Below are positions 2,780-62,171 of a stretch of DNA of 64,000 bases, in pieces. The notes beneath the pieces are model-generated. The model was given only the letters and a program-made list of their open reading frames with translations. It did no database searches and had not been told where the DNA came from. Origin of the DNA: Pelovirga terrestris (GTDB lineage: Bacteria; Desulfobacterota; Desulfuromonadia; Desulfuromonadales; Geopsychrobacteraceae); contig NZ_JACWUN010000003.1 of NCBI RefSeq assembly GCF_014773365.1, positions 1 through 64,000 of the forward strand, written 5' to 3'. The position numbers were made by a program, and so were the translations under genes. Numbering within the stretch: position 1 is the first letter of the stretch; each line of letters opens with the position of its first letter.

Positions 2780-4150
2780 ATGGTAGGGTTCCTGATTGGT
2801 TTGCTGGTAACGATCTGCGTCGGTTGGTTGATTATCAAGAAATATCAACCTCATACGGTCCTTCTTCTGGGCGGTTTAACGCTGCTTGGTCTCACGGTTT
2901 TAATCGCCCCTGAAACAAGCATTTTATTCAAAGATGCGAAGTCTACCGGCTGGATCGGCTTCGACCTGTTTGACTATGTCAAAAACACCATGTCCTATCG
3001 CGCCGCGGGTCTGGGGCTTATCATCATGGCGGCCGGCGGTTTTGCCAAGTACATGGATGAGATCGGGGCAACCAATGCCATGGTTTCCGTCTGTATCAAG
3101 CCCCTGCAGTTATTTCACGCTCCCTATGTCGTGCTTGCTCTGGGGTATGTTGTCGGCCAGATTATGAATATATTCATCCCCAGTGCTGCCGGGCTGGCGA
3201 TGCTGCTTCTGGTCACCTTCTACCCGACGCTGGTGAGATTGGGAGTCAGCAGAAAAGCCGCAGCAGCGATGATCGGCACGACGGCGGTACTGGATCTCGG
3301 CCCGGCAAGTGGCGCGTCGAACATGGCAGCCAAAACAGCAGGACTTGATGTTGCGGTCTACTTCGCCTCGTATCAGGTGCCGGTTGCTGTATTTTCCATC
3401 ATTACCATTTCCGTTCTTACCTATTTTACTGCCCGCTATTTTGATAATAAGGAAGGGCATGTCGCCACCGTAACCGCGTCATCGGCCCCCGAGGGTCAGC
3501 AGCTCGAAGCCCCCTCGAAACTTTACGCAATCCTCCCGCTGCTGCCGCTTACGCTGATTCTCATCTTCAGCAAGCTGCTGGTCAGCTCGATTAAATTAGA
3601 TGTGGTTACCGCGATGATTATCGGCGTGTTTGTCGGCATGCTGTTTGAGGTGATCCGGACCAGAGATTTCAAATCCATCTTCAAGGGAGTTATGGCCTTT
3701 TTCGATGGCATGGGGCATATGTTTGCACGTATCGTCTCCCTGATTATCTGTGCGGAAACCTTTGCTGCCGGTCTTAAAACCATAGGGGCTGTCGGTTTCC
3801 TGACCACTTCGGCGCAAAATGCAGGGCTGGGCTTCACGATTATGACGTTGCTGTTGTGCGCAATTGTGGCTGCGGTTGCGATTCTGACCGGCTCCGGTAA
3901 CGCGGCGTTCTTTTCCTTCGGCAATCTCGCTCCCGACATGTCCGCCAAGTTCGGTGCCGAAGCGGTCAGCATGTTGCTGCCGATGCAACTTACCGCCGGT
4001 CTGGCGCGCTCCATATCGCCGGTTGCGGGAGTAATCATTGCGGTCAGCGACGCCGGCCAATGTTCACCGATCGACATCGTCAAGAGAACGGCAATCCCGG
4101 TATTGGGTGGGATTGTCATTACTCTCCTGGTTAGTGTCTTTTTTGTCTGA
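2780..4150 (+). CDS. dcuC: C4-dicarboxylate carrier, DcuC family
   Basis: Inner-membrane transporter of the DcuC family, known for anaerobic exchange or efflux of succinate, fumarate, malate or aspartate. The 456-residue product is almost entirely hydrophobic, with about 12 predicted membrane segments; conserved-looking loops are GGFAKYMDEIGATN and the paired glycine-rich motifs PASGASNMAAK and TGSGNAAFFSFGN. I chose ATG 2780 because AAAGGAGA (2766-2773) sits directly upstream. The gene follows a promoter-palindrome and precedes two M20 peptidases, so it may take up or exchange the acidic amino acid or dicarboxylate released by them. The substrate is not readable from sequence. Intact. Confidence 0.85.
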   Translation: MVGFLIGLLVTICVGWLIIKKYQPHTVLLLGGLTLLGLTVLIAPETSILFKDAKSTGWIGFDLFDYVKNTMSYRAAGLGLIIMAAGGFAKYMDEIGATNAMVSVCIKPLQLFHAPYVVLALGYVVGQIMNIFIPSAAGLAMLLLVTFYPTLVRLGVSRKAAAAMIGTTAVLDLGPASGASNMAAKTAGLDVAVYFASYQVPVAVFSIITISVLTYFTARYFDNKEGHVATVTASSAPEGQQLEAPSKLYAILPLLPLTLILIFSKLLVSSIKLDVVTAMIIGVFVGMLFEVIRTRDFKSIFKGVMAFFDGMGHMFARIVSLIICAETFAAGLKTIGAVGFLTTSAQNAGLGFTIMTLLLCAIVAAVAILTGSGNAAFFSFGNLAPDMSAKFGAEAVSMLLPMQLTAGLARSISPVAGVIIAVSDAGQCSPIDIVKRTAIPVLGGIVITLLVSVFFV

Positions 4151-8421: not shown

Positions 8422-8715
8422 TTAAAGGCGGACTTCCAGATCCATTCTTTCATGCAAAACGCGGATAACGTTGATGCCACCGGCAACCTGTTCGCGGTAA
8501 AAAACCACATGCTGACCGGAAGGGAATTTGCGGTACCCAGAACGGATTTCGTCACACCGCTGTCCTTGATTCGGATTTTCAGCCAAAGCATGAAAACATC
8601 GGTCCAGCTGAGCAAGGTAGTGACGGCGCTGATCTCGTCCCCAGCGTTCTTGAGTATATCGCCCAATCTCGCGAAGATCCTCAAGCGCCTGCTTTGTTAG
8701 CGAAAACATCGGCAT
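8422..8715 (-). CDS. parE: ParE/RelE-superfamily toxin
   Basis: Toxin of a ParDE-type module, 97 residues. The ParE pattern is visible: FSLTKQALEDLREIGRYTQERWG at the N-terminus, a central helix, then YRKFPSGQHVVFYRE and the C-terminal INVIRVLHERMDLEVRL. ParE proteins poison DNA gyrase; some relatives act as mRNA interferases, so the target is inferred. It overlaps parD by one nt (stop/start TAATG type). Intact. Confidence 0.92.
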   Translation of the reverse strand: MPMFSLTKQALEDLREIGRYTQERWGRDQRRHYLAQLDRCFHALAENPNQGQRCDEIRSGYRKFPSGQHVVFYREQVAGGINVIRVLHERMDLEVRL

Positions 8716-8954
8716 TAGCCGGCGATCTCATCGAGTTCACGATTCAGATCTTCCAAAGAGTAATTTGCTGGGCCGCTTTGTTCGCCCTGTATCAAGGCTT
8801 TACGTAGAATTTTAAACTTTGTTTCACGCTCTTCAAGCAACCGCAACCCGGCACGAATCGCTTCGCTGGCAGAACCATAGCGGCCGTCCTCAATGGCATG
8901 AAAAATAAACTTTTCGTAGTGCTCGCCTAAAGTCACACTGGTATTTTTTCCCAT
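8715..8954 (-). CDS. parD: ParD-family antitoxin
   Basis: A 79-residue ribbon-helix-helix antitoxin: an N-terminal beta strand (TSVTLGEHYEKFI), YGSASEAIRAGLRLLEE as the second helix, and a disordered acidic C-terminal toxin-binding tail ending DELAG-like. It precedes parE and should autorepress the pair. ATG 8954 has an AGGA-type site 6-9 nt upstream. Intact. Confidence 0.92.
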   Translation of the reverse strand: MGKNTSVTLGEHYEKFIFHAIEDGRYGSASEAIRAGLRLLEERETKFKILRKALIQGEQSGPANYSLEDLNRELDEIAG

Positions 8955-9004
8955 GATGTCCTCCTCTGATGAACTGACGCCATTCTATAATATTTATTGG
9001 TATT

Positions 9005-9436
9005 TTTCCAGATCGCTCATCAGTTCGGGATGGCGATGTCTTCGTTGTCACTAAACTGGATCGCCTCGCTCGATCCGTCGTGGACCTCGCCAATATCGTG
9101 CAAAAGTTTGAGGTCAAAAATGTCGATCTGGTGGTGCTGGACCAGGGGATTGACACGACATCGATTTATGGCCGACTCCAATTCAATATTCTTGCCACCA
9201 TCGGAGAGTTTGAAAGGGAAATTATCCGGGAGCGCTCATACGAGGGCAGAATGCGCGCCCTGGCCAGGGGTGTCAAATTTGGTGCCAGGCCAAAACTTAC
9301 TGTGAACGAGATATCCCAATGGATCAACGACTATGAAGCTACAGGATGCAGTAAGACAGAGATCGCTGACCACTACGGGATAAGCCGATCATCCGTCTAT
9401 CGCATCTATTCTGAAAACTGCCAACACATGTCCTGA
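9005..9436 (+). pseudogene. Serine recombinase/resolvase missing its catalytic N-terminus
   Basis: The frame reads from about 9005 and matches the resolvase/invertase family from the middle of the catalytic domain onward: GDVFVVTKLDRLARS, the IDTTSIYGRLQFNI core, the E-helix EFEREIIRER, and a C-terminal Hin-type helix-turn-helix (SKTEIADHYGISRSSVYRIY). About 55-60 residues including the nucleophilic Ser are absent, and there is no proper start upstream (in-frame stop at 8975). It is therefore a dead recombinase. It may be what is left of the enzyme that built the island, or just another passenger. A terminator follows at 9454-9485. Confidence 0.85.
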
Positions 9437-9453
9437 AATAGTAGCAATGCAGG

Positions 9454-9485
9454 AATGCCCCGTCCAGCACTCCGGGCGGGGTATT
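9454..9485 (+). terminator. Intrinsic-type hairpin after the recombinase fragment
   Basis: ATGCCCCG (9455-9462) pairs with CGGGGTAT (9477-9484); the loop is GC-rich. The T-tract is weak, so efficiency is uncertain. Confidence 0.5.
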
Positions 9486-9694
9486 CGTGTTCAAAAAGTG
9501 GTCAGTTGTGAGACGGGGGGCTTAGATCTTTTACAATAACCATGTAAAAACCTTGTATGTGTCACGGTTTATCCCTGATGGCTAGTTACACAATCTTTTT
9601 TACCCTGGGTTATCAGAAAATCCACACCTGGATGACCAATCGGGGGAACAATATTTAAGATGCCGTGACTTTTATAAAAACCTCAGCAACTACT

Positions 9695-9958
9695 CTATTC
9701 ATAATGCGTCCACATGCGCAGCACTTTCACCACTCTTGTCTCTTCCAGAACCTGATAGACAAGTCGATGCTGTATGTTGATTCGACGGGAATATGCTCCA
9801 GCCAAATCGCCAACGAGCTTTTCATACGGAGGCGGGGTCTGATATGGATTCTCCGCTAAAACACTAAGTAGTTTTTCGGCTTTCGGCTTCAGTCCTGAAG
9901 CCGATAATTTCTTCCCATCCTTTTGGGCCTGCTTGGTAAAAACGATCCGCCAACTCAC
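9695..9958 (-). CDS. yoeB: Txe/YoeB-family toxin
   Basis: An 87-residue ribosome-dependent mRNA interferase. Family marks: WRIVFTKQAQKDGKKL at the N-terminus, NPYQTPPPYEKLVGDL, then YSRRINIQHRLVYQV and the C-terminal VLRMWTHYE with the YoeB-type catalytic His-Tyr end. It overlaps yefM by 4 nt (ATGA), as in most yefM-yoeB operons. Intact. The 258-nt gap to the recombinase fragment holds no recognisable gene. Confidence 0.94.
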   Translation of the reverse strand: MSWRIVFTKQAQKDGKKLSASGLKPKAEKLLSVLAENPYQTPPPYEKLVGDLAGAYSRRINIQHRLVYQVLEETRVVKVLRMWTHYE

Positions 9959-10197
9959 CAGTCAAGTTCCTCGTCGCACTCATCGACAGGGGTTTTCAGC
10001 CCCTCAACGATTGATTCCTTCATTCCCGGCACGGAATGGAGATAGAGTGTTTCCTGAACAGCCCGCCAATCATCTTCAGCGATCAGGACTGCATTGCCGC
10101 GCTTACCGGTAATTTGTACAGGTTCATGCGATTCGGAAACTTCATCGAGAAGTTTATAGAGGCTTTTCCTTGCTTCAGTAGCGGTTATAGTAGGCAT
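9955..10197 (-). CDS. yefM: YefM/Phd-family antitoxin
   Basis: An 80-residue antitoxin: the N-terminal Phd fold (TITATEARKSLYKLLDEV), the conserved PVQITGKRGNAVLIAEDDWRAV segment, and an acidic C-terminal tail (PVDECDEELDW) that would neutralise the toxin. Upstream of ATG 10197 is AGAGGAGAA. A GTACG/CGTAC inverted repeat 21-36 nt further upstream is a likely autoregulatory operator. Confidence 0.94.
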   Translation of the reverse strand: MPTITATEARKSLYKLLDEVSESHEPVQITGKRGNAVLIAEDDWRAVQETLYLHSVPGMKESIVEGLKTPVDECDEELDW

Positions 10198-10217
10198 TTT
10201 AGTTCTCCTCTCTGGGG

Positions 10218-10233
10218 GTACGTAAAAGCGTAC
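10218..10233 (-). promoter_or_regulatory. Inverted repeat, probable YefM operator
   Basis: GTACG (10218-10222) and CGTAC (10229-10233) with a 6-nt spacer. YefM-type antitoxins bind TGTACA-like palindromes; the match and the position just upstream of yefM support this role. Confidence 0.5.
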
Positions 10234-10389
10234 GCCAGCTGGAGTTGATAGTCAACTAAAACAGAACTCAACAACCCATTAGTGTTCAGCGCCAACAAAA
10301 GAACCACGTTTCTCATAAATCATTTTGGATTGAATGGATGGTGTAAATTTTGTCTAGGTGCGGTCTTCCGACAAACCCTGCTTTGTCAG

Positions 10390-10419
10390 AAATCCCGTCG
10401 GTCGATCCGAGCGGGATTT
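10390..10419. terminator. Intrinsic terminator hairpin
   Basis: AAATCCCG (10390-10397) pairs with CGGGATTT (10412-10419), with A/T tails on both sides. It separates yefM-yoeB from the next toxin pair and would stop leftward transcripts of the 10468-11036 operon. Confidence 0.65.
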
Positions 10420-10467
10420 TGGTGTGTTTATGTCGGCAAGTTATCGATTTGATATTTCCCTTGGCAG

Positions 10468-10767
10468 TTAGTAATAGTCCTCTTCGAGTTGGTGCCGGAC
10501 AGCTAAAATAGTGGCCGTCTTACTATCCTCAATTTCAAAAAGAACGACATACCCCTTTGCACCAAAAGAAATGATCATTTCGCGCAATAGAGGATCTTCG
10601 GGGGTTGCCTTTCGGCAGGTGAAGGGGAATTCTTGTAGAAATTTGATGCCCTTCTGGATAGAACTTAGGGCCTTTCGTGCAGCATCAATGTCCCGTTCAA
10701 CAAGAAAACCATAGAGCCGAACAAGATCATCCTTAGCTGTTCGGGTATAGCGAACCCGATAATTCAC
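10468..10767 (-). CDS. RelE/ParE-superfamily toxin
   Basis: A 99-residue toxin: YRVRYTRTAKDDLVRLYGFLVERD at the N-terminus (ParE-like helix hairpin), FPFTCRKATPEDPLLREMII, then GAKGYVVLFEIEDSKTATILAVRHQLEEDYY, with the usual strand-turn-strand and final Arg-His. ParE-type gyrase poison or RelE-type ribonuclease cannot be told apart by eye. It overlaps its antitoxin by 4 nt. Intact. Confidence 0.88.
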   Translation of the reverse strand: MNYRVRYTRTAKDDLVRLYGFLVERDIDAARKALSSIQKGIKFLQEFPFTCRKATPEDPLLREMIISFGAKGYVVLFEIEDSKTATILAVRHQLEEDYY

Positions 10768-11036
10768 TTATCCCTCTTTGTCTCTGCCTGGGCAAGCATC
10801 CCGCTCAGTTCATTTAAAACATCTTCAGCGGAGCAGTATTCCCCAGTCCGTCGAGACTCGTCTCTTGCAGCAATCCCTCTGGAAATAAATTCCCGGTGAA
10901 TTTTCCTGTGCTGAATACCGGCCCGTAATGACTTTTCCATAAAGCCGGATAAGGTTTCACCTTCACGTAAGACACTTTCAGCCGCTTGGCGTAATTCGGG
11001 CTCAACTCGTAGAGAAGGAATTGTTGCTGATTTCAT
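10764..11036 (-). CDS. Antitoxin of the RelE/ParE pair (YlcI/YnfO-like)
   Basis: A 90-residue partner with a ribbon-helix-helix-like N-terminus (SATIPSLRVEPELRQAAESVL), then SGFMEKSLRAGIQ and an RGIAARDESRRTGEY segment resembling the YlcI/YnfO family, often paired with ParE-type toxins. I prefer ATG 11036 over an upstream in-frame start at 11096 because AAGGAGG lies just ahead of it and the ribbon-helix-helix strand begins there. It overlaps the toxin by 4 nt and is expected to autorepress. Confidence 0.82.
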   Translation of the reverse strand: MKSATIPSLRVEPELRQAAESVLREGETLSGFMEKSLRAGIQHRKIHREFISRGIAARDESRRTGEYCSAEDVLNELSGMLAQAETKRDK

Positions 11037-11380
11037 GACGGACCTCCTTGCGTCGCATTTGCAACTCATTCTAACGGAAATTGATTCTGTGGGCAATGGG
11101 ATTTAGTGACCGAAAGGTAGAGCTTCAGAAGAAAACGTAAAGCCAAGGGAATCATGAGCGTACCATATCGTGGGTGTTTCTTGCATTGCGCTAGATGTAG
11201 CAAGTCTGAAAATAATGGGAATAATGGCTTACGTCAGTCTCTCTCGCGCCATTGAATTCCAAAATTTCTCCTGGAATCTGGAATCGAGTTTTTTAACATG
11301 GGTATCTGGTCACCACGCTACAGACTTGCCATTCTCCCGATAAAGTATATACTATGAATATATATTTATGGGAGGTGTTT
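11037..11380. other. Intergenic between divergent toxin-antitoxin operons
   Basis: No gene recognised. The last 40 nt are AT-rich (AGTATATACTATGAATATATATT, split around 11345-11368) and likely hold the vapBC promoter and the VapB operator. No longer repeat is visible. Confidence 0.5.
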
Positions 11381-11608
11381 ATGAAAACCGCAAAATTGTT
11401 TAAAAATGGCAAAAGCCAAGCAGTCAGACTGCCCAAAGAGTTTCGTTTGGACGGCGAAGAAGTTTACATTAAGCAGACCGGCAACGTCGTTCAGTTGATC
11501 CCCATGTCCGGCTCATGGGACTCTTTGTTTTCTAGCCTGGATAAGTTTTCTCCTGACTTTATGGCTGATCGTCAACAACCCCAGCTGGAAAATCGGGAGG
11601 ATTTTTGA
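11381..11608 (+). CDS. vapB: VapB-family antitoxin
   Basis: A 75-residue antitoxin with an N-terminal AbrB/SpoVT swapped-hairpin DNA-binding domain (MKTAKLFKNGKSQAVRLPKEF) and a C-terminal toxin-binding tail (FSPDFMADRQQPQLENREDF). ATG 11381 sits behind GGGAGG; the upstream in-frame ATG at 11354 lacks one. It precedes vapC and overlaps its start codon by one nt. AT-rich inverted sequence upstream is the probable operator. Confidence 0.94.
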   Translation: MKTAKLFKNGKSQAVRLPKEFRLDGEEVYIKQTGNVVQLIPMSGSWDSLFSSLDKFSPDFMADRQQPQLENREDF

Positions 11609-12024
11609 TGATCCTGCTCGACACAAACATCTGTATCTACATCATCAAACGCAAACCAGAGGAGGTCCTGCACCATTTCCAGCAATATCATCCGGGCGAT
11701 ATAGGAATTTCATCAATCACCCTGGCTGAGCTTCAATATGGAGTTGCCAAAAGTCAGGCACAGAAGCGCAACGCTGAGGCGTTGTCTGAGTTTCTGATCC
11801 CCTTTGAGATTCTTCCCTTCGGTGAATCAGCTACGCAGGCCTACGGGGCGATCCGGACAGTGCTGGAGCAACAGGGAAAAATCATCGGGGCGATGGATTT
11901 ACTAATCGCTGCACATGCTGTCTCGTTGGATGCTGTTCTAGTGACGAACAACGTGAAGGAATTCAAAAGGGTACCGGATCTCAAAATCGAGAACTGGGTA
12001 AACACCAAGACCACCGAATCCTGA
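11608..12024 (+). CDS. vapC: VapC-family PIN-domain ribonuclease toxin
   Basis: A 138-residue PIN endoribonuclease; known VapCs cut tRNA or rRNA. Acidic metal ligands are visible: Asp in LLDTNICIYI, Glu in LAELQYG, Asp in GAMDLLIAAHA, and a final VLVTNNVKEF with the Thr-Asn motif. ATG 11608 overlaps the vapB stop (TGATG), which fits the family length better than the TTG one codon upstream. Intact and fully paired. Confidence 0.94.
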   Translation: MILLDTNICIYIIKRKPEEVLHHFQQYHPGDIGISSITLAELQYGVAKSQAQKRNAEALSEFLIPFEILPFGESATQAYGAIRTVLEQQGKIIGAMDLLIAAHAVSLDAVLVTNNVKEFKRVPDLKIENWVNTKTTES

Positions 12025-12211: not shown

Positions 12212-13333
12212 CTACAGAGAAAGATGTCGCAGACAGCTAATCACCTCATCCAGTTCTTTCCAGGTCGTGGCTCGGCCCAGGCTGAATCGGATCGCCCCCA
12301 TCCCCTCCCTCACAGGAACACCCATGGCGGCAAGAACGGGGGAAAGGGTCACTGAGCCGGCATGGCAGGCAGAGCCGGTAGAAGCAGCGACCTGCGGCAT
12401 ACGGCCGAGAATCTCGGCCCCTGTACGGCCGGTGAAATTGATGTTGAGGGTGTTGGAGAGCCGCTGCGTCGGGTGTCCGTTGAGGGAGACCTTCGGCCCG
12501 AAGGTCTCCTGCAGCTGATCCCAGAAACGATCGCGCAGATCCTTTATCTGTGGCGCATCGATCCAACCGGCGGCTACTTCGCAGGCCGCTCCCAGTGCCA
12601 CGGCCAGGAGGACGTTTTCCGTTCCGGCCCGCCGCCCTGATTCATGCCCGGCGCCATGGATGAAAGGCTCAATGCATGTCCCTTTGCGAATGTACAAGGC
12701 ACCGATTCCTTTGGGGGCATAGAGCTTGTGTCCGGCCAGCGACAGAAGATCGACCCCGAGGGTGTCGACCCTGGTGGGAATCTTGCCGACACTCTGAGCC
12801 GCATCGGTGTGGCAAAGAACCCCTGCTTCGTGAGCGATGGCGGCGATCTCTGCAATGGGTTGGATCGTGCCGACCTCGTTGTTGGCATGCATTACTGAGA
12901 TCAGAATCGTACGGGAGGAGATCGCCCGGCGCACATCGTCCGGATCGACACGACCAAATCGATCAACGGGAAGGATGGTAACCTTGGCTCCAAGTCGCTC
13001 CAGGAAGCGGCCGGGTGCGAGGGTCGCCGGATGCTCTACCGCTGTAGTGATGATGTGGTCGCCGTGTTCCCGATGGGCAAAAAAGACTCCCTTGAGAGCA
13101 TGATTATTCGACTCACTACCACCGCTGGTGAAGACGACTTCGGTGGGATCGCAGTCCAGAAGGGCCGCAACCTGCGTCCGCGCGCGTTCCACTGCGTCCT
13201 TGGCTGGGATCCCGGCCCAGTGCGGACTGGAGGGGTTGCCGTAGTGCTGGGTCAGAAAGGGGCGCATCGCCTCCAGTGCCTCATGGGCGATGGGGGTGCT
13301 GGCGTTGTAGTCGAGATAGATTTGCTTCGTCAT
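12212..13333 (-). CDS. Cysteine desulfurase (NifS/IscS-like), last gene of the CooS operon
   Basis: PLP enzyme that moves sulfur from cysteine to an active-site Cys persulfide. The 373-residue class-V aminotransferase fold is complete: YLDYNASTP start, GGSESNN, HxxP-type EHPATL, ASTPLP-binding HTDAAQ, the PLP lysine in LAGHKLYAPKG, the Arg-rich RRAGTEN, and the catalytic Cys in TGSACHAG. It ends an operon that starts with a CooS homologue, 63 nt after the HMA protein gene. That suggests a dedicated sulfur supply for the operon's Fe-S or sulfur chemistry rather than general Isc function; no iscU is adjacent. Intact. Confidence 0.88.
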   Translation of the reverse strand: MTKQIYLDYNASTPIAHEALEAMRPFLTQHYGNPSSPHWAGIPAKDAVERARTQVAALLDCDPTEVVFTSGGSESNNHALKGVFFAHREHGDHIITTAVEHPATLAPGRFLERLGAKVTILPVDRFGRVDPDDVRRAISSRTILISVMHANNEVGTIQPIAEIAAIAHEAGVLCHTDAAQSVGKIPTRVDTLGVDLLSLAGHKLYAPKGIGALYIRKGTCIEPFIHGAGHESGRRAGTENVLLAVALGAACEVAAGWIDAPQIKDLRDRFWDQLQETFGPKVSLNGHPTQRLSNTLNINFTGRTGAEILGRMPQVAASTGSACHAGSVTLSPVLAAMGVPVREGMGAIRFSLGRATTWKELDEVISCLRHLSL

Positions 13334-13396
13334 GAAATACCTTTCAATTCGACTCAGGCCGAGGGCTCTTCATGGGAGCGGATTGGGTGGTGCAGT

Positions 13397-14266
13397 TCAG
13401 CCACCGCAAGAACCGCCGCAGCCGGAACGTGAACCGCTGTTGGCAGCCTTGAGTTCCGGATCAAAGATCACCAGCGGCGTGGTTCTGACCAGCTGTTGAT
13501 ACCAGAATTGCAACTGCTGTTGTTGCTGGGCCGCTGACAGACCTGGAGCGCTGACATTCAGGGCCAGGTGCTTGCTGATGATCATATCATTTTTGAGTTG
13601 CACGGAAAAAGCCGCCAAACTGCCGAATCTCTTGGCCAGCAGTTGGTCAAAGTCGGCATGGTCGGCTTTGATCCTCTCGATTTCGGCAAAGACCTCGTCC
13701 TCGTAAACGACGACCTGGCTTTGCTCGGCCGCATTGAGCAGCAGCTCGCGCTGGAGCAGCTCGTTCCACACCTGCTGGCGCAGTTGATTCAGCATTGCGG
13801 GGGGCGGCGACTGAGGTATAGATTCCATGCGTTTTTCGAGAACCGCCTGGAATTCTTCGCGGGGCAGTAACCGTTCCCCCACCCGGGCCACGTAACGGTT
13901 GGCCAGGCGCTCGTCCTCGGCTTTTAGAGCGCGGTATTCATCGGTACTTAAGGATTCCTGAAGAGTTGCCGGGTAGCCGGCGGCAGTAATCGCGGCGGCG
14001 ATGGTCGCGGGATCGACCCGTGCGGCATCATACTCGACGTTACTGCGTCCGGTAGTGACGCTGACCTCGACCTTACCAACGCCGTTGACGCCCGCTAGGG
14101 CATTTTGAACCCTTCGCACACAGGCTCCGCAGGTCATTTTTTCGACATTGTAGACCGCCAGAGAGACGTCGGCGGCATCAATGGTACGTGGCGTCCAGCC
14201 CATTGCGACTACTGCCAACACGGTAAACACTGCTAACGCGGCAAGATAGGTTGTTTTTTGTTTCAT
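13397..14266 (-). CDS. Exported HMA-domain / SurA-N-like protein with Cys-Gly tail
   Basis: A 289-residue protein with an unusual domain mix. Residues 1-31 form a signal peptide or membrane anchor (LAALAVFTVLAVVAMGW). Residues about 35-103 are a heavy-metal-associated domain with the metal-binding pair in MTCGACVRRV. Residues about 115-265 are helical and resemble the N-terminal SurA/PpiC chaperone module (RVGERLLPREEFQAVLEKR, QVWNELLQRELLLNAAEQ). The protein ends in SRSGCGGSCGG, a second likely metal- or sulfur-binding site. It probably acts in the periplasm as a metal carrier or assembly chaperone. It lies between the ABC transporter ATPase and the cysteine desulfurase in one operon. I do not know a named family for the whole architecture. 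Confidence 0.7.
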   Translation of the reverse strand: MKQKTTYLAALAVFTVLAVVAMGWTPRTIDAADVSLAVYNVEKMTCGACVRRVQNALAGVNGVGKVEVSVTTGRSNVEYDAARVDPATIAAAITAAGYPATLQESLSTDEYRALKAEDERLANRYVARVGERLLPREEFQAVLEKRMESIPQSPPPAMLNQLRQQVWNELLQRELLLNAAEQSQVVVYEDEVFAEIERIKADHADFDQLLAKRFGSLAAFSVQLKNDMIISKHLALNVSAPGLSAAQQQQQLQFWYQQLVRTTPLVIFDPELKAANSGSRSGCGGSCGG

Positions 14267-14346
14267 GTTGTCTCCTGTTGGCTCGTTTTACCAATTTCCT
14301 TACAACGTTAAGCTAACCCTTTAGCTCAGGCACAGATCTGTCTTAT

Positions 14347-15141
14347 TCAGATTGCATAATCCATCGCTTCTTCGTGAACCAGCTGAAATTCACGGAACAG
14401 CTCGCGTCGGTAGGCGGCAAAGACGCTGTCGGTGCGATCGCAAGGGCGGGGAAGTTGAATATCAACAATTTTACGGAGACGGCCGGGATATGGGGCCATC
14501 AGGATGACTTTGCTGCCAAGATAGATGGCTTCGTCCAGATCATGGGTCACAAAAACGACTGTTGGTTGCTGCTCCTGCCAGATCCGCAGCAGCTCATCCT
14601 GCAAGCGCAAACGGGTGAAAGCGTCCAGCGCCGCGAATGGTTCATCCATAAACAGCACTTGTGGCGATGCCGCCAGGGCTCTGGCAATGGCAACACGCTG
14701 TTTCATGCCGCCTGAAAGCTGGTGCGGATAGCGTTCGGCACTGTCCTTTAGCCCGACGATTTCAAGGTGATGCAAAGCGGTAGCTTTGGCCTCGGATTTG
14801 GCCACCCCTTTGGCTTCAAGGGCGAACATGACATTACCCAGGGCGCTTTTCCAGGGGTAGAGGCCGTAATCCTGAAAAATCATGATCCGTTCAGAATCGG
14901 GCTTGGTCACTGGTTTGCCGTCGATGGTGATGGAGCCGCAACTGGGCTGGTCAAATCCGGCCAAAAGATTTATTAATGTCGTCTTGCCGCAGCCGCTCGG
15001 TCCGACCAGACAAACAAACTCACTAGCCGCGATATCAAGATCAAGGGGAGATAACGCCGCCATGCGTTCACCATTGGGATTGCGATAATATTTGGCCACC
15101 CCGCGCAGCGACATTGTTCCCGATGTCATCTGTTGACCCAT
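14347..15141 (-). CDS. ABC transporter ATPase, NitT/TauT family
   Basis: Energises the importer encoded upstream. The 264-residue ATPase has Walker A GPSGCGKTT, Q-loop IFQDYGLYPW, signature LSGGMKQR, Walker B VLFMDEPFAALD and H-loop VFVTHDLDEA, all as in SsuB/TauB/NrtD-type proteins. I chose ATG 15141, preceded by GGAGGAGTG; the permease stop is 1 nt upstream, so the genes are translationally linked. Together with 15143-16918 it forms a complete binding-protein-dependent importer. The substrate cannot be read off; family members carry nitrate, sulfonates, cyanate, bicarbonate or thiamin precursors. Confidence 0.92.
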   Translation of the reverse strand: MGQQMTSGTMSLRGVAKYYRNPNGERMAALSPLDLDIAASEFVCLVGPSGCGKTTLINLLAGFDQPSCGSITIDGKPVTKPDSERIMIFQDYGLYPWKSALGNVMFALEAKGVAKSEAKATALHHLEIVGLKDSAERYPHQLSGGMKQRVAIARALAASPQVLFMDEPFAALDAFTRLRLQDELLRIWQEQQPTVVFVTHDLDEAIYLGSKVILMAPYPGRLRKIVDIQLPRPCDRTDSVFAAYRRELFREFQLVHEEAMDYAI

Positions 15142-15142
15142 A

Positions 15143-15907
15143 TCACACTCCTCCCCAACGCCGTTTAAGTAAATCTTCAAGCTGGCGCATGGCGCGATAG
15201 ATTGCCAGCCCAAGCAGACCGACCACCAGCATCCCCGCTAGAATCCAGTCGGTACGCAAGAAGTTGCGGGCATCGACAATCAAATAACCAAGCCCCGACT
15301 GGGCGCCGAGCATTTCTCCCGCGACCAGGTGAATCCAGGCGGTACCAACAGCAATATGCAAGCCGACCATGATGCCGGGAAAGGCTGCCGGAATGACAAC
15401 TCGCAGAAATACCATCATTTTGCCGGCGCCGAAATTGGCGGCGACCTTTAGATAGATCGCAGGAATTTGACGCACCGCGTCGATGGTTGCCAGCAGCATG
15501 GGGAAAAAAGCCGACAGGAAAATGATAAAAATGGCCGGTGCGTTACCGATACCGAACCAGAGCACCGCCAGCGGGAACCAGGCAATGGGAGAGATTGGAC
15601 GCAGAACCTGGAGTAACGGATCCATGGCTCGGCGGGCGGTTATATAGCTGCCCAGAAACAGACCAAGAGGGATGGCGATGCTAACGGCCAGCAGATAGGC
15701 ACTGAAAAATCGATAGAGACTGATGCTGATGTGACTGAATAATACGCCGTCGGTCATCAGCTCACGTAGAGCCCGCAGGACATCCAGCGGTCCAGGCAGC
15801 TGTACCGGGGGATAAAACCCTGCGGCAAATTGCCACAAGGAGATGAAACCCAGCAGACCGACCGTCGGCACCAGATGGCTGAAAATCTTTTGAAACCCGA
15901 TATTCAT
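15143..15907 (-). CDS. ABC transporter permease, NitT/TauT family
   Basis: A 254-residue integral membrane protein with about six segments and the cytoplasmic coupling motif (EMLGAQSGLGYLIVDARNF, close to the EAA loop of SsuC/TauC). PGPLDVLRALRELM near the N-terminus and PISPIAWFPLAVLWFG in the middle are typical for this family. It is 39 nt downstream of the binding protein gene and abuts the ATPase gene. Intact. Confidence 0.92.
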   Translation of the reverse strand: MNIGFQKIFSHLVPTVGLLGFISLWQFAAGFYPPVQLPGPLDVLRALRELMTDGVLFSHISISLYRFFSAYLLAVSIAIPLGLFLGSYITARRAMDPLLQVLRPISPIAWFPLAVLWFGIGNAPAIFIIFLSAFFPMLLATIDAVRQIPAIYLKVAANFGAGKMMVFLRVVIPAAFPGIMVGLHIAVGTAWIHLVAGEMLGAQSGLGYLIVDARNFLRTDWILAGMLVVGLLGLAIYRAMRQLEDLLKRRWGGV

Positions 15908-15946
15908 CTATATTTCTTTGTTTCAAGATATCTGTTCAGCACAGGA

Positions 15947-16918
15947 TCAGGCATTCAGAGCAAAATGCGCATCCAAATACTGATCTAGATCGACCTGCTC
16001 CCTGGCGACATTAAATTGCAGCATATAGTTCTGGGTCGCTGCAAAATCAGCTACGGTCGGGGCAAGACTGTCGAAGGTAATGCGCCCTTTCGGGGTCGTG
16101 AGCACTGTCTTGATGATCTCCGGACGCTGGCCCAGTAGCCGCACCGACAGTTGTGCCGCTTCATCCGGTTCACTCTGAATAAAGTGAGCCGTCCGGGTCA
16201 GTCCGGTGACCAGATCCTGCGCGATCTCCGGCTGATTGATGATGTTTTCTCGCAGATTCAGGACGCAGCAGATATGATCGTTCCAGATATCCTTGGAAAG
16301 GGTCAGCACCTTTCCGACCTGCTGTGCTTCGGCCTGAGCACCAAACGGCTCGGCGACGATGAATCCGTCAATACGGCGAGTCGCCAGCGCCATCACCATT
16401 TCCGGGGGCGCCATGTCGAGCAATCGGACATCAGAATCGGGGATCAGCCCATTTTCCGTCAGCACCTTGCGCAACAGCAGATTGTGGGTCGAAAAGGGGC
16501 TGGGGATGGCAATTGTTTTCCCCTTAAGATCACTAATGCTGTTGATATCATTGCCATTTCTTACGGTGATGACACTGCCGTTGCGATGTCCCAGCAACAC
16601 CGCCTTGATCGGCGCTCCGTTACGCCGCAGGGTCAAGCCGATGGGGGTCAGCAGAAAAGCTCCATCGACAGCGCCAGCGCGAAGAGCCTCTGCCGCTTCC
16701 GGCCAGGAGGAAAATTTGATCGGCTCCAGCTTGATATGCTCGAATCTGTGTTGCTGGGCGGCGATCATCAGCAGATGATCGGTAATGGGTAGATAGCCGA
16801 TTTTCAGCGTCTGTTTGCCGGTGGCAAACGCTCTGGAAACCCCTCCGGGAAAAGCGCCAAACACCGGAGCTGCGGCCAGCGTTGTCAATCCGACCTTGAT
16901 AAAGTCGCGTCTTTTCAT
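15947..16918 (-). CDS. NitT/TauT-type substrate-binding protein with Tat signal
   Basis: The 323-residue periplasmic ligand-binding protein of the importer. The N-terminus MKRRDFIKVGLTTLAAA carries a twin-arginine motif, so it is probably exported folded, possibly with a bound cofactor. The mature part begins near LKIGYLPITDHLLM and shows the two-lobe SsuA/NMT1-type fold (FSSWPEAAEALRAGAVDGAFL; LKGKTIAIPSPFSTHNLL; RRIDGFIVAEPFG). A Cys pair in DHICCVLNL is unusual. The ATG shares one nt with the CooS stop (TGATG), indicating tight coupling. The ligand is unknown; linkage to CooS hints at a small C1, N or S compound or a metal chelate (inference). Confidence 0.88.
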   Translation of the reverse strand: MKRRDFIKVGLTTLAAAPVFGAFPGGVSRAFATGKQTLKIGYLPITDHLLMIAAQQHRFEHIKLEPIKFSSWPEAAEALRAGAVDGAFLLTPIGLTLRRNGAPIKAVLLGHRNGSVITVRNGNDINSISDLKGKTIAIPSPFSTHNLLLRKVLTENGLIPDSDVRLLDMAPPEMVMALATRRIDGFIVAEPFGAQAEAQQVGKVLTLSKDIWNDHICCVLNLRENIINQPEIAQDLVTGLTRTAHFIQSEPDEAAQLSVRLLGQRPEIIKTVLTTPKGRITFDSLAPTVADFAATQNYMLQFNVAREQVDLDQYLDAHFALNA

Positions 16919-18870
16919 CAGTTTTCTCCTTTAGCAAAGGTTGTGGCAACAGCTTTCCAGCCGAGTTCACTGCGGCGTTGGTCAAAATCGAGAATAATTC
17001 GTTTGGCCAGGGTTGCTGGATCGGGTTCGATGACCATCACCGAACCCAGACTTTCACGGGTCTGTTCGTAGAAGAAACGAGCGACTTTGTCCGAACCACT
17101 GACCGGTGGAGAGATACAGTGGTAGGAGTTGATTCCCAGCAGGCGGAAACTTAAGGCGGCACCGACCCCTTTTTCGTTTGACCATTCCGGGCTCGAAAAG
17201 GCGAAAGGGGTTTGTTTTAGAGGCTTGCCGCAGGCGTCTGACAAGACCCGAAACAACGCTGATGCCCGGGCATTGTCGAGACACTCTCCCATGTGCCAGA
17301 CGGGTGGCAATTGATGCTGTTCCAGGACTCCCTGCAAACCTGAACCTGCCTGGCTTAAGCCGTCGGGATGACAGAAGCCGAGCTTGAGCAAGGCATAGGC
17401 GGCGCAGCCGTTGGTCAGAACCAGCACGTCGTTGGCGATCAGCTCGCGGGCCACGATGGTAATCGCCTCTTCGTAAACCAGCTTGGGATTGTTACACCCC
17501 ACCAGATTGACGACCCCTCGAATGTTGCCGTGCTTTAAATGATCAATGAGAACCGGTGCACCGCCAAAGGTTTCAAGAATATTTTCAACAGCGAACCCGA
17601 CCTCTGCGGCAACCCGCGCCGGCGGAATGAAAACCTTCCCGGACAGCCGTCCAGAAAAACTGTGAATGGCTTTTTCAATGATTTTTGTCGCTATTACGTC
17701 AGCCTGATCCAGATTGCTGTGATGATGATCAAACGCCAGGTGCTCGGCACCCGGCAAGCGGGCAGAATCGCTGGTTGTTATCACACGGGTATGAAAGCAG
17801 GCGGCAACATCCATAATGCCGGGGAAAACATCTTGCACATCAGCAACCCACAGATCCAGAGCCCCGGTCGCCAAAGCCAGTTCAGCCCCCATAGCGCTGG
17901 CTAAAGGCTGAATATCACCAAATTTTGCCAGCGCCGAATGGCCGGAACAGCAGATGCCGTAAAGACGAATACCGGACGCTCCCTGTTGCCGCGCTGCGGC
18001 GATCAGATCTTCGTTCCGTGCTGCTTTAACGATAGCGGCTACCAACACCGGTGAATGCCCGTGAACGGCAATATTGACGGAATCTTCTGTGATCGAACCC
18101 AGATTGACTTCTACCGTACTGCGCTTGGGCAGGCCATAAAGGCTGTCCATTGCGATACTGGAACCGACCACGCTGCTCCAGGCGAACGCCAGACCGCAAC
18201 GCAGCATTTGCTGCAGAATATTTTGCCAATCGCCATCAGTTCCAGTGGTGGTGCGGTGAAGGGCCTCGAACACTTCGTGATAGGCACCGATCGGCAGGAT
18301 ATCCAGTTCTTTCCAGACCGCCAGTCGCTCCGGCGGTGCCATCGCTTCCAGGGTACGATGCGGTCCGGGAAGCGTACGACACAGATCCTCCAGCAGAATC
18401 ATGGCGATTTCGCCAGCCAGTTCCTTAATCTCGCGCCCTTCTACATCCAAACCAAAACTGCGGGCGGCAGCCTGTACCTTTTCCGGCCCTAGGATCGGCA
18501 GATCAAGAGAACCGTCAGCAGCTCCTTTAAGAGCAAGCATCACCTCGCGACCCCGTGCGCCATGAGCGGATACCCCGGCAGCGACCCAGCGCAGGATGTT
18601 GCGCGCCGCAATCAGATGGGCATCGGCGCCGCAGACTCCGCGCGGACTTTTGGGGGTAATCCGGCACGGCCCCATATGACAGTTCTTGCAGCAGGTTCCA
18701 TTCAGTCCAAAACCACAATGGGGTTTCTGTGCATCAAAACGATCAAAAGCCGTTTCAAGACCAAGCTTATCCATGCGCTGAATCATCTCCCTGACAGAGG
18801 GATCCGGCGTTCGTTTCAACACGGTTTGTTTGTCGGGAAAATTGCGGATGTCATTTTTTCTTGTAGCCAT
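16918..18870 (-). CDS. cooS: Carbon monoxide dehydrogenase CooS homologue lacking one C-cluster cysteine
   Basis: A 650-residue cytoplasmic metalloprotein with the full CODH scaffold. The D- and B-cluster cysteines are all present (C52, C60, C61, C64, C69, C80). For the active-site C-cluster I see the His of VHGHSP (270/272), Cys in GICCSG (307/308), C459 in VGCNNPK, C489 in LTNGCAA, C530 in HMGECLD and the catalytic-type K567 in NEKG. The cysteine expected in the VDxQC motif is replaced by Asp347 (ADVQDVFP; codon 17830-17832). The His ladder after H103 is also reduced (SAHGARGREV). Deviant CooS proteins that miss a C-cluster Cys are known, and one, CooS-V of Carboxydothermus, was reported to hold a Fe/S/O hybrid cluster and not to turn over CO. 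This protein may be of that kind. First gene of a six-gene operon. Confidence 0.88.
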   Translation of the reverse strand: MATRKNDIRNFPDKQTVLKRTPDPSVREMIQRMDKLGLETAFDRFDAQKPHCGFGLNGTCCKNCHMGPCRITPKSPRGVCGADAHLIAARNILRWVAAGVSAHGARGREVMLALKGAADGSLDLPILGPEKVQAAARSFGLDVEGREIKELAGEIAMILLEDLCRTLPGPHRTLEAMAPPERLAVWKELDILPIGAYHEVFEALHRTTTGTDGDWQNILQQMLRCGLAFAWSSVVGSSIAMDSLYGLPKRSTVEVNLGSITEDSVNIAVHGHSPVLVAAIVKAARNEDLIAAARQQGASGIRLYGICCSGHSALAKFGDIQPLASAMGAELALATGALDLWVADVQDVFPGIMDVAACFHTRVITTSDSARLPGAEHLAFDHHHSNLDQADVIATKIIEKAIHSFSGRLSGKVFIPPARVAAEVGFAVENILETFGGAPVLIDHLKHGNIRGVVNLVGCNNPKLVYEEAITIVARELIANDVLVLTNGCAAYALLKLGFCHPDGLSQAGSGLQGVLEQHQLPPVWHMGECLDNARASALFRVLSDACGKPLKQTPFAFSSPEWSNEKGVGAALSFRLLGINSYHCISPPVSGSDKVARFFYEQTRESLGSVMVIEPDPATLAKRIILDFDQRRSELGWKAVATTFAKGEN

Positions 18871-19278: not shown

Positions 19279-20025
19279 TTAAGTGCGAAGAATAAGCTGG
19301 TAGAGAATCCCGCCCGCCGCACTGACGGCCAGTGTAGGAATCAAACCCACCTTGGTACGAAACAGGACGAAAAAAGCAGCCGCTGCAATAATCAGCGCCG
19401 GCAGATCTAGGGTATTCAAGGTCGGGATGAGGATACGGATGCCAGGGAAGGTCTGCACCGTCAGATGGCCAAAGAGCGTATTGAAGGAAAACCAGACCGC
19501 CAGATTGAGGATGACGCCAACTACCGCCGCCGTTACTGCTGTCAAGGCGGTTTTAAGGGAAAGGTTGCGATTAAACCTTTCTATGTAGGGGGCACCAAGG
19601 AAGATCCAGAGAAAGCAGGGCACAAAGGTGACCCAGGTCACGACGACAGAGGCCAATAGCCCCGCCGCCAAAGGAGAAAGCTCGTCGACCAGACGAAAAG
19701 CGCCCATAAAGCCGACAAACTGTACGACCTGGATCAAAGGCCCCGGTGTCGTCTCAGCCATGCCCAACCCATCAAGCATCTCCCCTGGTGCCAGCCAGCC
19801 GTAATCCTCCACCGCCCGCTGGGCCACATAGACAAGGACGGCGTATGCGCCTCCAAAGGTTACCACCGCCATCTTGCTGAAGAACACGCCTTGCGTCACA
19901 AAGAGATGTTCGGTGCCAAACACATAAACCAATAACGCAAGGGGGGCAAACCACAGGGGCAACCAGATGGCCAGCTGCCACAAACAGTGCCATATAATCA
20001 AATCCAAGACGCATATCTCGGTCAA
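19279..20025 (-). pseudogene. chrA: Chromate transporter ChrA, C-terminal half only
   Basis: The 248-residue frame corresponds to the second half of the two-domain ChrA family (full length about 400 residues or more). FFSKMAVVTFGGAYAVL, the conserved MLDGLGMAETTPGPLIQ and FVGFMGAF, then about five membrane segments are seen. The first CHR domain is missing, and residues 1-20 look like read-in sequence. Single-domain ChrA pairs exist, but this piece has no partner gene and begins within the linker, so I call it a truncated remnant. The 346-nt gap upstream contains only hairpins and repeats. Confidence 0.75.
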
Positions 20026-23410: not shown

Positions 23411-23490
23411 CACCACAAAGAGCAAACCCGGAGCAATCCGGGGACGCAAAGCCACGGATCCCCCAGGGACAGCCGGGTTGCCGTAGACCC
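23411..23490 (+). ncRNA. Cyclic di-GMP-I (GEMM) riboswitch
   Basis: The GEMM-I conserved blocks appear in order: AGCAAACC (23421-23428), GGGACGCAAAGCCACGG (23441-23457) and GACAGCCGGGTTGCCG (23468-23483), with P2 and P3 stems between. The pattern is distinctive and common in Geobacter-like genomes. A hairpin GCAGA...TCTGC (23495-23519) just downstream may belong to the expression platform. The next large gene starts at 23809, about 320 nt downstream, so the switch likely controls the signalling operon 23809-27655, perhaps through the small frame at 23657. Confidence 0.9.
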
Positions 23491-36156: not shown

Positions 36157-37785
36157 ATGAGTATGTTCTGTTATCAGTGTCAGGAGACAGCCAAAGGAAG
36201 CGGTTGCACCATCGCCGGCGTTTGCGGCAAAAAAGAGGATACCGCCGGTCTGCAGGATCTGCTGGTCTTTACCCTTAAGGGACTGGCGGTTGTCGCCGAG
36301 GAAGCCAAAAAGCAGAACAAGCTTGATCCGGCCATCGGACTGTTCATCTGCCAGAGCTTTTTTGCCACTATAACAAATGCCAACTTTGATAATGCCCGCT
36401 TCGTTGCCCTGATTAAGGCATCGATCTCCAAGCGCGATGCGTTGAAACTGGCCATCGGCTACAGCAGTGACCTTGATGCGGTCAACTGGAACGGTCCTGA
36501 GGGCGATTATGCCGCTAAAGCGGCCGAGGTCAGCGTCTTGTCACAGCCCAACGAAGATGTCCGCTCCCTGCGTGAGCTGCTGATCTATGGCCTCAAAGGG
36601 ATGGCGGCTTATGCCGATCACGCTGCCGTACTCGGTTTTGAGAAGCCGGAAATCTACGACTTCATGATTTCCGCCCTGGCTACCACCACCCGCGACTTGA
36701 GCGTTGACGAGATGGTCGCTCAAGTCCTCAAATGTGGTGAGGTCGCAGTCACCACTATGGCCCTGCTGGATGAGGCCAATACCACCACCTACGGCAATCC
36801 GGAAATCACCACGGTGAATCTGGGCGTGCGCAACAACCCCGGTATTCTGATCTCTGGTCATGACCTCAAGGACATGGAAGAGCTGCTCAAGCAGACCGAA
36901 GGCAGCGGCGTCGATGTCTACACCCACAGCGAAATGCTGCCGGCCAACTATTATCCCGCCTTCAAGAAATATGATCATTTCGTCGGCAACTACGGTAATG
37001 CCTGGTGGTTGCAGGACAAGGAATTCACCTCCTTTAACGGTCCGATCCTGATGACCACCAACTGTATCACCCCGGTCAAAGAGGCCTACAAGGATCGCAT
37101 CTACACCACCGGTATGGCCGGCTGGCCGGGCGCAACCCATATTGCTGATCGCCCCGAAGGTGGCGTCAAGGATTTTTCGGAGATCATCGCCAAGGCCAAA
37201 ACCTGTGCCGCTCCGACCGAGATCGAGACCGGCACCATCGTTGGTGGCTTTGCCCATGCCCAGGTCATGGCCCTGGCTGACAAGGTGGTTGACGCCGTCA
37301 AGTCCGGCGCCCTCAAACGTTTTGTCGTCATGGCCGGTTGTGACGGTCGTCAGCCTGGTCGTAATTACTTCACGGAAGTCGCAGAAGCGTTGCCGAATGA
37401 TACCGTCATATTGACCGCCGGTTGTGCCAAGTACCGTTACAACAAGCTCAACCTGGGTGACATCGGTGGCATCCCACGGGTTCTGGATGCCGGTCAGTGC
37501 AATGATTCTTACTCCCTGGCTTATATCGCACTGCAACTCAAGGAAGTGTTCGGACTTGAGGATATCAACGATCTGCCAATCTCTTACGATATCGCCTGGT
37601 ACGAGCAGAAAGCCGTCGTTGTGCTTCTCGCATTGCTCGCGTTGGGAGTAAAGCACATCCGCCTGGGACCGACATTGCCGGCTTTCCTGTCGCCGAACGT
37701 CGCCAAGGTGCTGGTGGAAAATTTCGATATCAAACCGACAGGTGATGTCGCCGGCGATGTCGCTGCGATTATGGCCGGCAACTGA
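36157..37785 (+). CDS. hcp: Hybrid cluster protein (hydroxylamine reductase / NO reductase)
   Basis: A 542-residue cytoplasmic protein with an N-terminal 4Fe cluster motif (C-x2-C-x8-C-x5-C in [15 protein letters not shown]...GVC) and the Fe-S-O hybrid cluster ligands further on ([37 protein letters not shown], and Glu/His residues). Hcp reduces NO and hydroxylamine and protects against nitrosative stress. It is preceded by an FNR-like box and followed by a strong terminator. Its structural relative CooS sits 18 kb away in this window. Confidence 0.96.
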
Positions 37786-60877: not shown

Positions 60878-61025
60878 CGTTAGCCCTTCATGTCGCCGGT
60901 GTTAAAAATTGACACCGCTCTTCTATCCCTTGATCATCCCACTGTCAACAAAGTAACGCCGGCCAGACCTCATTGCAGCACTCAACATATTGCACAATCA
61001 TCAAATATCCTCTATGGTTTCAACT

Positions 61026-62171
61026 ATGAGTATCTATCTTGATTGTGCCTCGACCACCCCCGTTGAACCCGCTGTAGCACAGATCGTTCGACGGTTCACA
61101 GAAGAAGACTACGGCAACGCCGCCAGTCCCATCCACGACTACGGCTGCTTTGCGCGCATGGCAGTCGACCATGCCCGGGGCCAGATAGCTAAACTGGTCA
61201 AAACAAGACGCGATGATGTCATCCTCACCAGCGGCGCCACCGAAGCAAACAATCTGGCCCTTCTCGGTTTGCGTGAGTACGGCCTGAAAACTGGTCGGCG
61301 CCACCTGATCTGCAGTGCCATCGAACACAAAGCCGTGCTGGAACCGCTTGAAGCCCTGACCAAAACCGGTTTCGAGCTGACCGTGATCCCGGTCGGCAGC
61401 GACGGCCGCATTCTCATCGCCGCACTGCGCAAAGCCCTGCGCCCCGACACCCTGCTGGTGTCAACCATGCAGGTCAACAACGAAACCGGGATGATTCAGC
61501 CCTTGGCAGAGATTGCCGAGGTCTTGGCTGACCACTCGGCCTTCTGGCATGTCGATGCCGCCCAGGGGTTCGGTAAGGAACTTGACAGTATCACCCATCC
61601 GCGCATTGATCTGATCAGTATCAGCGGCCACAAGATTTACGGTCCGAAAGGGATTGGCGCCCTGATTACCCGCAAGCGCCATAGCGAACCGCCGCCGTTA
61701 AAACCCTTGATGTTTGGCGGCGACCAGGAACAGGGGTTGCGACCCGGCACCCTGCCGGTCGCTCTAATTGCCGGCCTGGGTGAAGCGGCCCGCTGTGCCC
61801 TGCGGGATCATAGCGAGCGGCTGGAAAAAGTCCGCCATATCCGCGCCCGGGCACTGAGCGCGCTGGCACCGCTGCTGCCGGTAATAAATGGGGATCCGGC
61901 ATACTGCTTGCCCCACGTTATCAACATCTCCCTGCCGGGCATCCCCTCCGTCACCGCCATTCGCGCCCTGGCAAAAGTCATCGCCATTTCCAGCACCTCC
62001 GCCTGCACCAGCCATCATACCGCCCCCAGTCACGTTCTCAATGCCATGGGGTGCAGTGAAGCAGAGTCCTCCTCGGCGCTGCGACTAAGCTGGTGTCACC
62101 TGACCGACGATGTAGATTGGGATACGGTAGTTACGACATTGAAGCAGTTACAATATCAAAATCCATTCTAA
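61026..62171 (+). CDS. Second cysteine desulfurase (IscS/DndA-like)
   Basis: A 381-residue class-V PLP enzyme. IYLDCASTTPVEP start, SGATEANNLALLG, EHKAVLEPLE, NNETGMIQP, HVDAAQGFGK, PLP Lys in SISGHKIYGPKG, and Cys in SSTSACTSHH followed by APSHVLNAMG. The SACTSHH loop and the S-H-V-L end recall DndA, but no dndBCDE genes are near. It could serve Fe-S assembly or tRNA thiolation. ATG 61026 is chosen at the family start. It is followed by a convergent rhodanese gene. Confidence 0.85.
   Translation: MSIYLDCASTTPVEPAVAQIVRRFTEEDYGNAASPIHDYGCFARMAVDHARGQIAKLVKTRRDDVILTSGATEANNLALLGLREYGLKTGRRHLICSAIEHKAVLEPLEALTKTGFELTVIPVGSDGRILIAALRKALRPDTLLVSTMQVNNETGMIQPLAEIAEVLADHSAFWHVDAAQGFGKELDSITHPRIDLISISGHKIYGPKGIGALITRKRHSEPPPLKPLMFGGDQEQGLRPGTLPVALIAGLGEAARCALRDHSERLEKVRHIRARALSALAPLLPVINGDPAYCLPHVINISLPGIPSVTAIRALAKVIAISSTSACTSHHTAPSHVLNAMGCSEAESSSALRLSWCHLTDDVDWDTVVTTLKQLQYQNPF

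Follow-up and report, generated by a model that had tools for sequence, protein, structure and literature searches.

A clade B carbon monoxide dehydrogenase homologue and its importer in Pelovirga terrestris: genomic association with sulfur assimilation

What does a homologue of carbon monoxide dehydrogenase (CODH) do when one ligand of its active-site cluster has been exchanged and an importer is encoded behind it? The question is raised by a 64,000-nucleotide (nt) stretch of Pelovirga terrestris DNA (contig NZ_JACWUN010000003.1, positions 1 to 64,000; hereafter the window), in which six open reading frames (ORFs), all on the minus strand, occupy positions 12212-18870. A preliminary description proposed that all six form a pathway which imports a small ligand, processes it on the CooS homologue and builds or repairs the cluster of that enzyme. 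In this study, we report that cooS genes of this type, known as clade B, sit in sulfur-assimilation neighbourhoods, an observation that is new here, and we argue that cooS and the three importer genes probably constitute a sulfur-scavenging module; the structure of the module is observed directly in the loci compared, and the class of its ligand is one that we infer.

16918-18870, minus strand: cooS, clade B group B-2 type, 650 amino acids (aa) (Pfam Prismane, TIGR01702, alignment to solved CODHs)
15947-16918, minus strand: solute-binding protein (SBP) of the Pfam family NMT1_2, with a twin-arginine leader (MKRRDFIK) recognised by eye
15143-15907, minus strand: ABC permease (BPD_transp_1)
14347-15141, minus strand: ABC ATPase (ABC_tran), start ATG at 15141 taken from the sequence
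13397-14266, minus strand: HMA + SurA_N protein (Pfam), judged from locus comparison to lie outside the conserved module
12212-13333, minus strand: NifS/IscS-like cysteine desulfurase (Pfam Aminotran_5; TIGR03402 at 441 bits, below the cutoff of 531), a lineage-specific neighbour
19279-20025, minus strand: ChrA-like chromate-transporter-family gene (PF02417), 408 nt upstream of cooS

The enzyme itself was considered first. Window CooS scores 512.6 bits on the anaerobic CODH model TIGR01702, above the cutoff of 478, and its predicted structure (pLDDT 86) has the CODH fold, with Z scores of 54.1 to 6t7j, 50.3 to CooS-V (7b7q) and 26.7 to a class III hybrid cluster protein (HCP). It is deviant, as the preliminary description had noticed: in the alignment to solved CODHs, Asp347 replaces the second C-cluster cysteine (presumably Cys333 in the numbering of CODH-II), and the remaining C-cluster ligands and acid-base His/Lys residues are intact (H103, H270, C308, C459, C489, C530 and K567). 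With aspartate at the Cys333 position, the cluster departs from the five cysteines plus one histidine of functional CO dehydrogenase. The B-cluster is represented by C61/C64/C69/C80 and a type II D-cluster (Cys-x7-16-Cys) by C52 and C60, seven residues apart; no His-rich extension is present at either end. Asp-ligated Fe-S clusters tend toward low potentials.

Ninety clade B loci were reduced to 79, the window included, by removing 11 at 95% or more CooS identity, and were compared with 51 other-clade CooS from the order of the window and the class of Clostridium bovifaecis. The full residue pattern, D347 and both D-cluster cysteines included, is common to all 79, and cysteine stands at the D347 position in 51/51 of the others. 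Clade B has sixty positions that are conserved to 95% or more within it and to less than 15% elsewhere; several of these (N487, E529, S560, N565, G568) adjoin active-site ligands. It also has an inserted Asn386 beside the conserved H382 and H384. A tree, in which the published clade B reference accessions were not included, separated the 79 loci from the 51 with support 1.0. On its residues, the window protein matches group B-2 of the clade B Ni-CODHs, in which the second C-cluster cysteine is likewise an aspartate (PMC6344411, Table 2); that 2019 paper also describes the type II D-cluster, the His/Lys residues and NitT/TauT neighbours.

One alternative, put forward for CooS-V, is an enzyme of hybrid-cluster type that deals with NO, hydroxylamine or redox stress; for clade B CooS it is quite unlikely. 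Clade B CooS and CooS-V have both lost a C-cluster cysteine on the CODH fold, HCP and CODH widely co-occur (PMC13056359), and the host genome carries an HCP-like ORF at 36157-37785 (plus strand of the window), its only other prismane-family gene. CooS-V of Carboxydothermus hydrogenoformans, however, belongs to clade D and has lost a different ligand, Cys295, to glutamate (PMC9311411), and its genomic context lacks a clear pattern in PMC13056359. The corresponding C308 is kept in 79/79 clade B sequences, with glutamate in 13/51 of the controls, and no nitrogen-oxide family was prominent in the first 45 clusters of ORFs around clade B cooS, among which no search was aimed at such families.

The importer is a regular companion of this enzyme, as had been supposed. 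A scan of genome contigs gave 237 relatives, of which the best 80 were retained, and ORFs around cooS were chosen by homology-weighted picking. Of 76 non-redundant clade B loci (those of the best-80 set plus the window), 65 carry the SBP, permease and ATPase genes, each no more than 6.5 kb from cooS; two transporter genes were found in 4 of the other 11, one in 3 (short contigs among them) and none in 4. This regularity counts against ordinary CO oxidation or CO2 reduction giving electrons to sulfur assimilation beside an unrelated importer. Retention of C295, C446, C476, C526, H261 and the acid-base residues agrees with such a role, but the invariant aspartate does not, and inspection of the neighbour lists by eye revealed no CooF, hydrogenase or acetyl-CoA synthase (ACS) cluster; we regard it as improbable. 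A scan of eight window proteins, which took in the six genes together with the ChrA-like gene and an AFOR-like gene and did not extend to the rest of the genome, likewise showed no CooF, CooC or ACS, and the earlier judgement that this is not a standard CO system is upheld.

The six-gene version of the operon fared differently. Its co-directional genes and tight spacing were confirmed (cooS and the SBP gene overlap in TGATG at 16918, and the following gaps are 39, 1, 80 and 63 nt). Among 84 loci compared, though, the window is the sole case of an HMA/SurA gene adjoining the operon on the same strand, and just the window and its relative KA08 (L072) have a close NifS-like homologue (97%) next to cooS; a 62% NifS-like gene of L076 is on the opposite strand. 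In KA08, whose CooS is 99% identical to that of the window, some 25 codons from the end of HMA/SurA are all that survives of it, beside an ABC ATPase fragment (L072:8863-9450). The six full-length HMA/SurA homologues whose surroundings were opened elsewhere in the order (L066-L071) all accompany the same FtsX/ABC-ATPase cassette, with no cooS in the stretch. Such a cassette stands divergently beside cooS in two Desulfuromonadales-type loci, L064 (12131-15426) and L081 (6019-8405), where the HMA-like matches are weak (59-60 bits), so that a loose association of cooS with the cassette in the order of the host is possible. A pathway in which HMA/SurA would act as a metal chaperone in the periplasm and NifS would serve it as a dedicated donor of sulfur draws some favour from the spacing and from these two loci, but is largely refuted by the locus comparison and is highly improbable. 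From the same comparison, the conserved unit is the four genes cooS-SBP-permease-ATPase, with the HMA/SurA and NifS-like genes outside it. Judged by the condition that the preliminary description itself had set, CooS homologues of this clade occurring mostly without the other genes, the version with six genes is refuted and a four-gene core is sustained. For the NifS-like neighbour a sulfur link is plausible; the supposed sulfur donor is not conserved as such, but it speaks for the preliminary description that 4/79 loci carry a different desulfurase, of the encapsulin-2 cargo type, no more than roughly 8 kb from cooS.

What the module handles is suggested by its surroundings. ORFs around clade B cooS were clustered and the cluster representatives named with NCBIfam; the markers were MetY/CGS, CysK, CysE, sulfate-binding protein, CysT/W, sulfite reductase, family 2 encapsulin with its cargo desulfurase, LarE and MetQ, together with CysD, CysN and CysH, which were named by eye. 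At least one marker lay within 8 kb in 34/79 clade B loci and in 2/51 other-clade loci, both with sulfate-binding protein (Fisher p = 2.5e-7; independence does not extend to related loci, and the controls represent two groups and nine genomes), and in 0/20 arbitrary windows from nine host genomes. The enrichment persisted when LarE and MetQ were left out (29/79, p = 6e-6), when the 8 marker-supplying loci were left out as well (22/71, p = 1.4e-4), and with one locus per 80% CooS cluster (11/38, p = 0.0015); restricted to the same strand and 6.5 kb, 21/79 clade B loci retained a marker. Fresh loci, 32 from Negativicutes and Geobacterales less 16 dropped as duplicates, gave 5/16 (p = 0.007). A Burkholderiales-type order represented by G527 yielded no fresh loci, G527 itself being the one clade B genome in 250. 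In L073, L087 and L090, cooS is flanked on one side by the gene for the sulfate-binding protein and on the other by those for CysT/W-type permeases, and in L284 the order is Rrf2 regulator, cysK, cooS. A cysteine synthase context in Megasphaera has been noted as a minor type (PMC11338639).

A second line of evidence came from a search of plasmids with the window SBP, which matched 49 records, of which 14 regions were opened. An acyl-CoA-dehydrogenase-like (ACAD) flavoprotein gene lies near the importer at all 13 plasmid loci of organisms taken as aerobes (12 annotated; that of Burkholderia arboris, unannotated, found by tblastn at 26% identity). The fourteenth region, of Ruminococcus albus, has cooS and no ACAD. 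The Cys-Cys motif stands in each of the 13 SBPs inspected letter by letter (12 aerobic plus R. albus), and among 72,556 plasmid records CooS was limited to that of R. albus, at 56% identity, and one distant 35% match. Both cooS and ACAD occur in the clade B loci L099, L114, L115, L116 and L119; a search of 71 control loci for such an ACAD, at E 1e-8, found none. An AhpD-like gene is also common to L099 and L115, and an OsmC gene to L114, L116, L119, L079 and L081.

The aerobe systems have the same Cys-Cys SBP type, permease and ATPase (on plasmid 1 of Synechococcus elongatus the SBP is 42% identical over 222 residues), but in the place of CooS a flavoprotein, frequently joined by a gene of AhpD, OsmC or DUF4242 type; this exchange of enzymes is observed at the level of gene association. 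On that plasmid (pANL), which we take to be the sulfur plasmid of the study cited below, the importer is preceded by carbonic anhydrase, catalase, chromate transporter and cysK. Encapsulin, one of our markers, is presumably the major membrane protein I of Rhodobacter capsulatus. The markers were further set against two published responses. One plasmid of S. elongatus holds many sulfur-related genes, and SrpI is raised on sulfur starvation (PMC8049743). With isethionate as sole sulfur source, R. capsulatus induces ssuCAB, tauABC, cysteine desulfurase and major membrane protein I, and likewise serine acetyltransferase, sulfate transport genes and the isethionate reductase IsrBHDK (PMC11423573). 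Since some gene classes that flank cooS are isethionate-induced in the one organism or starvation-raised in the other, these responses were counted for a role in sulfur metabolism. One Acetobacter plasmid row (L307:1647-8236) reads OsmC, ACAD, rubredoxin, NrtA-like importer, cyanase. Cyanase (cynS) was rejected as a general partner, being absent from the other opened loci; this single locus is a hint of thiocyanate or cyanate chemistry.

A third line is regulatory. In Clostridium luticellarii (L128), a SAM riboswitch at 3581-3681 (89.5 bits against an Rfam cutoff of 44.4) precedes the cooS start at 3893 with no gene between, and the leader folds into an aptamer region and two terminator-like hairpins ahead of the ATG. 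At L093 a SAM riboswitch lies on a neighbouring gene of similar cystathionine-family type and not on cooS, and at L122 a cystathionine-family gene that diverges from cooS has a T-box ahead of it.

An import module that frees sulfur without oxygen would explain the sulfur neighbours, the riboswitch and the exchange of enzymes together. The Cys-Cys SBP and ABC transporter would import a small sulfur compound; the CODH-fold enzyme with its aspartate ligand, using low-potential electrons and no O2, would release the sulfur as sulfide, sulfite or thiol; and the product would feed cysteine and methionine synthesis. CooS would then be the anaerobic counterpart of the ACAD-like flavoprotein, with a substrate that is identical or similar; candidates for it are small sulfonates, among them isethionate, taurine and methanesulfonate, and triatomic C-S anions, thiocyanate for example. 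More tentatively, clade B CooS may be an O2-independent desulfurising enzyme on the CODH fold, doing the job of the aerobic flavoprotein behind the same importer, with an Ni,Fe-S (or Fe-S) cluster bearing a carboxylate ligand that cleaves sulfur off the imported compound; we hold this enzymatic assignment to be a serious possibility, somewhat short of evenly balanced. The "C1/N/S compound or metal chelate" of the preliminary description would accordingly narrow to a plausible sulfur-containing ligand.

The binding protein bears on the nature of the ligand and on the main alternative. C217-C218, H111, S143 and E190 of the SBP are invariant in 26 aligned relatives. Its best solved match is 3un6 (277.9 bits, profile A1), to which the model (pLDDT 90.7) is also closest (Z 37.0, rmsd 2.0, 279 aligned), followed by NrtA (33.5, nitrate), CmpA (32.9, bicarbonate), SsuA (29.0) and TauA (28.2). 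These models fit a small anion, perhaps held with a soft or metal-assisted contact, as ligand class. The SAO system (SaoX/SaoP/SaoA) has related NitT/TauT subunits, but all three models scored below their curated cutoffs on window genes (SaoA 239/360, SaoP 184/295, SaoX 80/300 bits), and a selenoprotein/SAO link was rejected on that account.

The hypothesis of PMC6344411 is that the importer brings Ni2+ or another metal and that clade B CooS is a nickel enzyme loaded via His-rich tails. Zinc is bound in 3un6, the SBP cysteines and histidine are invariant, His-rich N-termini occur in Negativicutes and Clostridium members, and a MinD/CooC-like gene stands beside cooS in L098, L111, L115 and L130 (the L098 member falls below the cutoff on MinD models, and CooC is our reading). 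From such neighbours and tails, nickel is likely in at least some clade B members. Nickel supply as the task of the importer is nevertheless unlikely: the same importer type, Cys-Cys motif included, accompanies a flavoprotein and no CODH at the aerobic loci, so that nickel import alone is insufficient; the close plasmid CooS is confined to R. albus; the recurrent neighbours of cooS are sulfur genes; and the window CooS lacks a His-rich tail. Nickel import for CODH alone is unlikely.

Several observations weigh against the sulfur-scavenging module. No marker lies within 8 kb of cooS in 45/79 clade B loci, many with flanks cut by contig ends, and among loci with full flanks 10/36 have one. No such marker comes within 8 kb of cooS in the window, and the Cys/Met-metabolism PLP genes of the host sit on other contigs. 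The marker list was fixed after the first loci had been seen, and two of the five fresh positives carry LarE as sole marker; LarE also serves a nickel cofactor. Five of the 16 fresh non-redundant loci, all from Negativicutes, have no importer within 8 kb. The SAM riboswitch precedes cooS in just 1/25 loci of the first search and in none of 23 further sources (the window and a repeated L100 included), and the ACAD gene of L119 is on the opposite strand. Negativicutes cooS genes without an importer within 8 kb were seen at L270, L272, L276, L277 and L281; at L270, cysE- and cysK-like genes stand directly upstream of cooS in place of the importer.

The remaining surroundings of the operon were also recorded. 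The ChrA-like gene is retained in KA08, and its product has a weak 29% match over 113-117 aa to the plasmid chromate transporter of S. elongatus; it is a possible member of the module. An AFOR-family gene sits beyond it. A promoter and terminator scan of the window gave results no better than shuffles. Beside the operon, at 8422-12024, small ORF pairs resemble toxin-antitoxin modules by eye (RelE/ParE-, YefM- and VapBC-like), together with a resolvase fragment; the VapC-like ORF recurs in KA08. A c-di-GMP-I-GGC riboswitch (23411-23486, plus strand, 59.6 bits, cutoff 59) precedes a large ORF, sensor kinase-like, whose start is at 23809, and a second cysteine-desulfurase-like gene was recognised by eye at 60990-62171 (plus strand).

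The pairing of CooS with a NitT/TauT importer is not new, having been published as clade B Ni-CODH (PMC6344411, PMC13056359), and the preliminary label of a candidate new system does not hold for this core; the window differs from the published loci in the HMA/SurA and NifS-like genes that follow its operon. Nickel import is offered in the accessible part of PMC6344411 and a sulfur link was not found there. The function of clade B could not be deduced and awaits biochemistry according to PMC13056359, and its role remains unknown according to PMC13240472. No sulfur role for clade B and no flavoprotein/CooS swap was found in the accessible literature searched, which did not cover subscription journals and preprints; within that coverage, both the sulfur assignment and the swap appear to be new.

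A close likeness in anaerobic sulfonate assimilation is IsrBHDK, which works with an SsuABC importer, whose co-induced classes (serine acetyltransferase, cysteine desulfurase, sulfate ABC transporter) also flank clade B cooS, and which has a named relative in MarBHDK; these are, however, nitrogenase-like proteins and not of the prismane/CODH fold (PMC11423573). NifH-like proteins were seen near clade B cooS at L074:413-1369 and L103:15146-15970, in company with a radical SAM protein, a second NitT/TauT importer and a gene judged by eye to be PPOX-like; these sets are possibly another anaerobic sulfur reductase. A nitrogenase partnership was rejected: full nifH is present in 8/11 genomes searched, among them the host, but missing from KA08, Caldicoprobacter and C. 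bovifaecis.

Surveys count clade B CODHs among CO-metabolism genes, and such counts would mislead if the sulfur role is true. In that case the family would also provide a second metalloenzyme fold, alongside the nitrogenase-like proteins, in anaerobic sulfur scavenging. The role of clade B is now open to test, and a cooS gene under SAM-riboswitch control exists in a cultured Clostridium.

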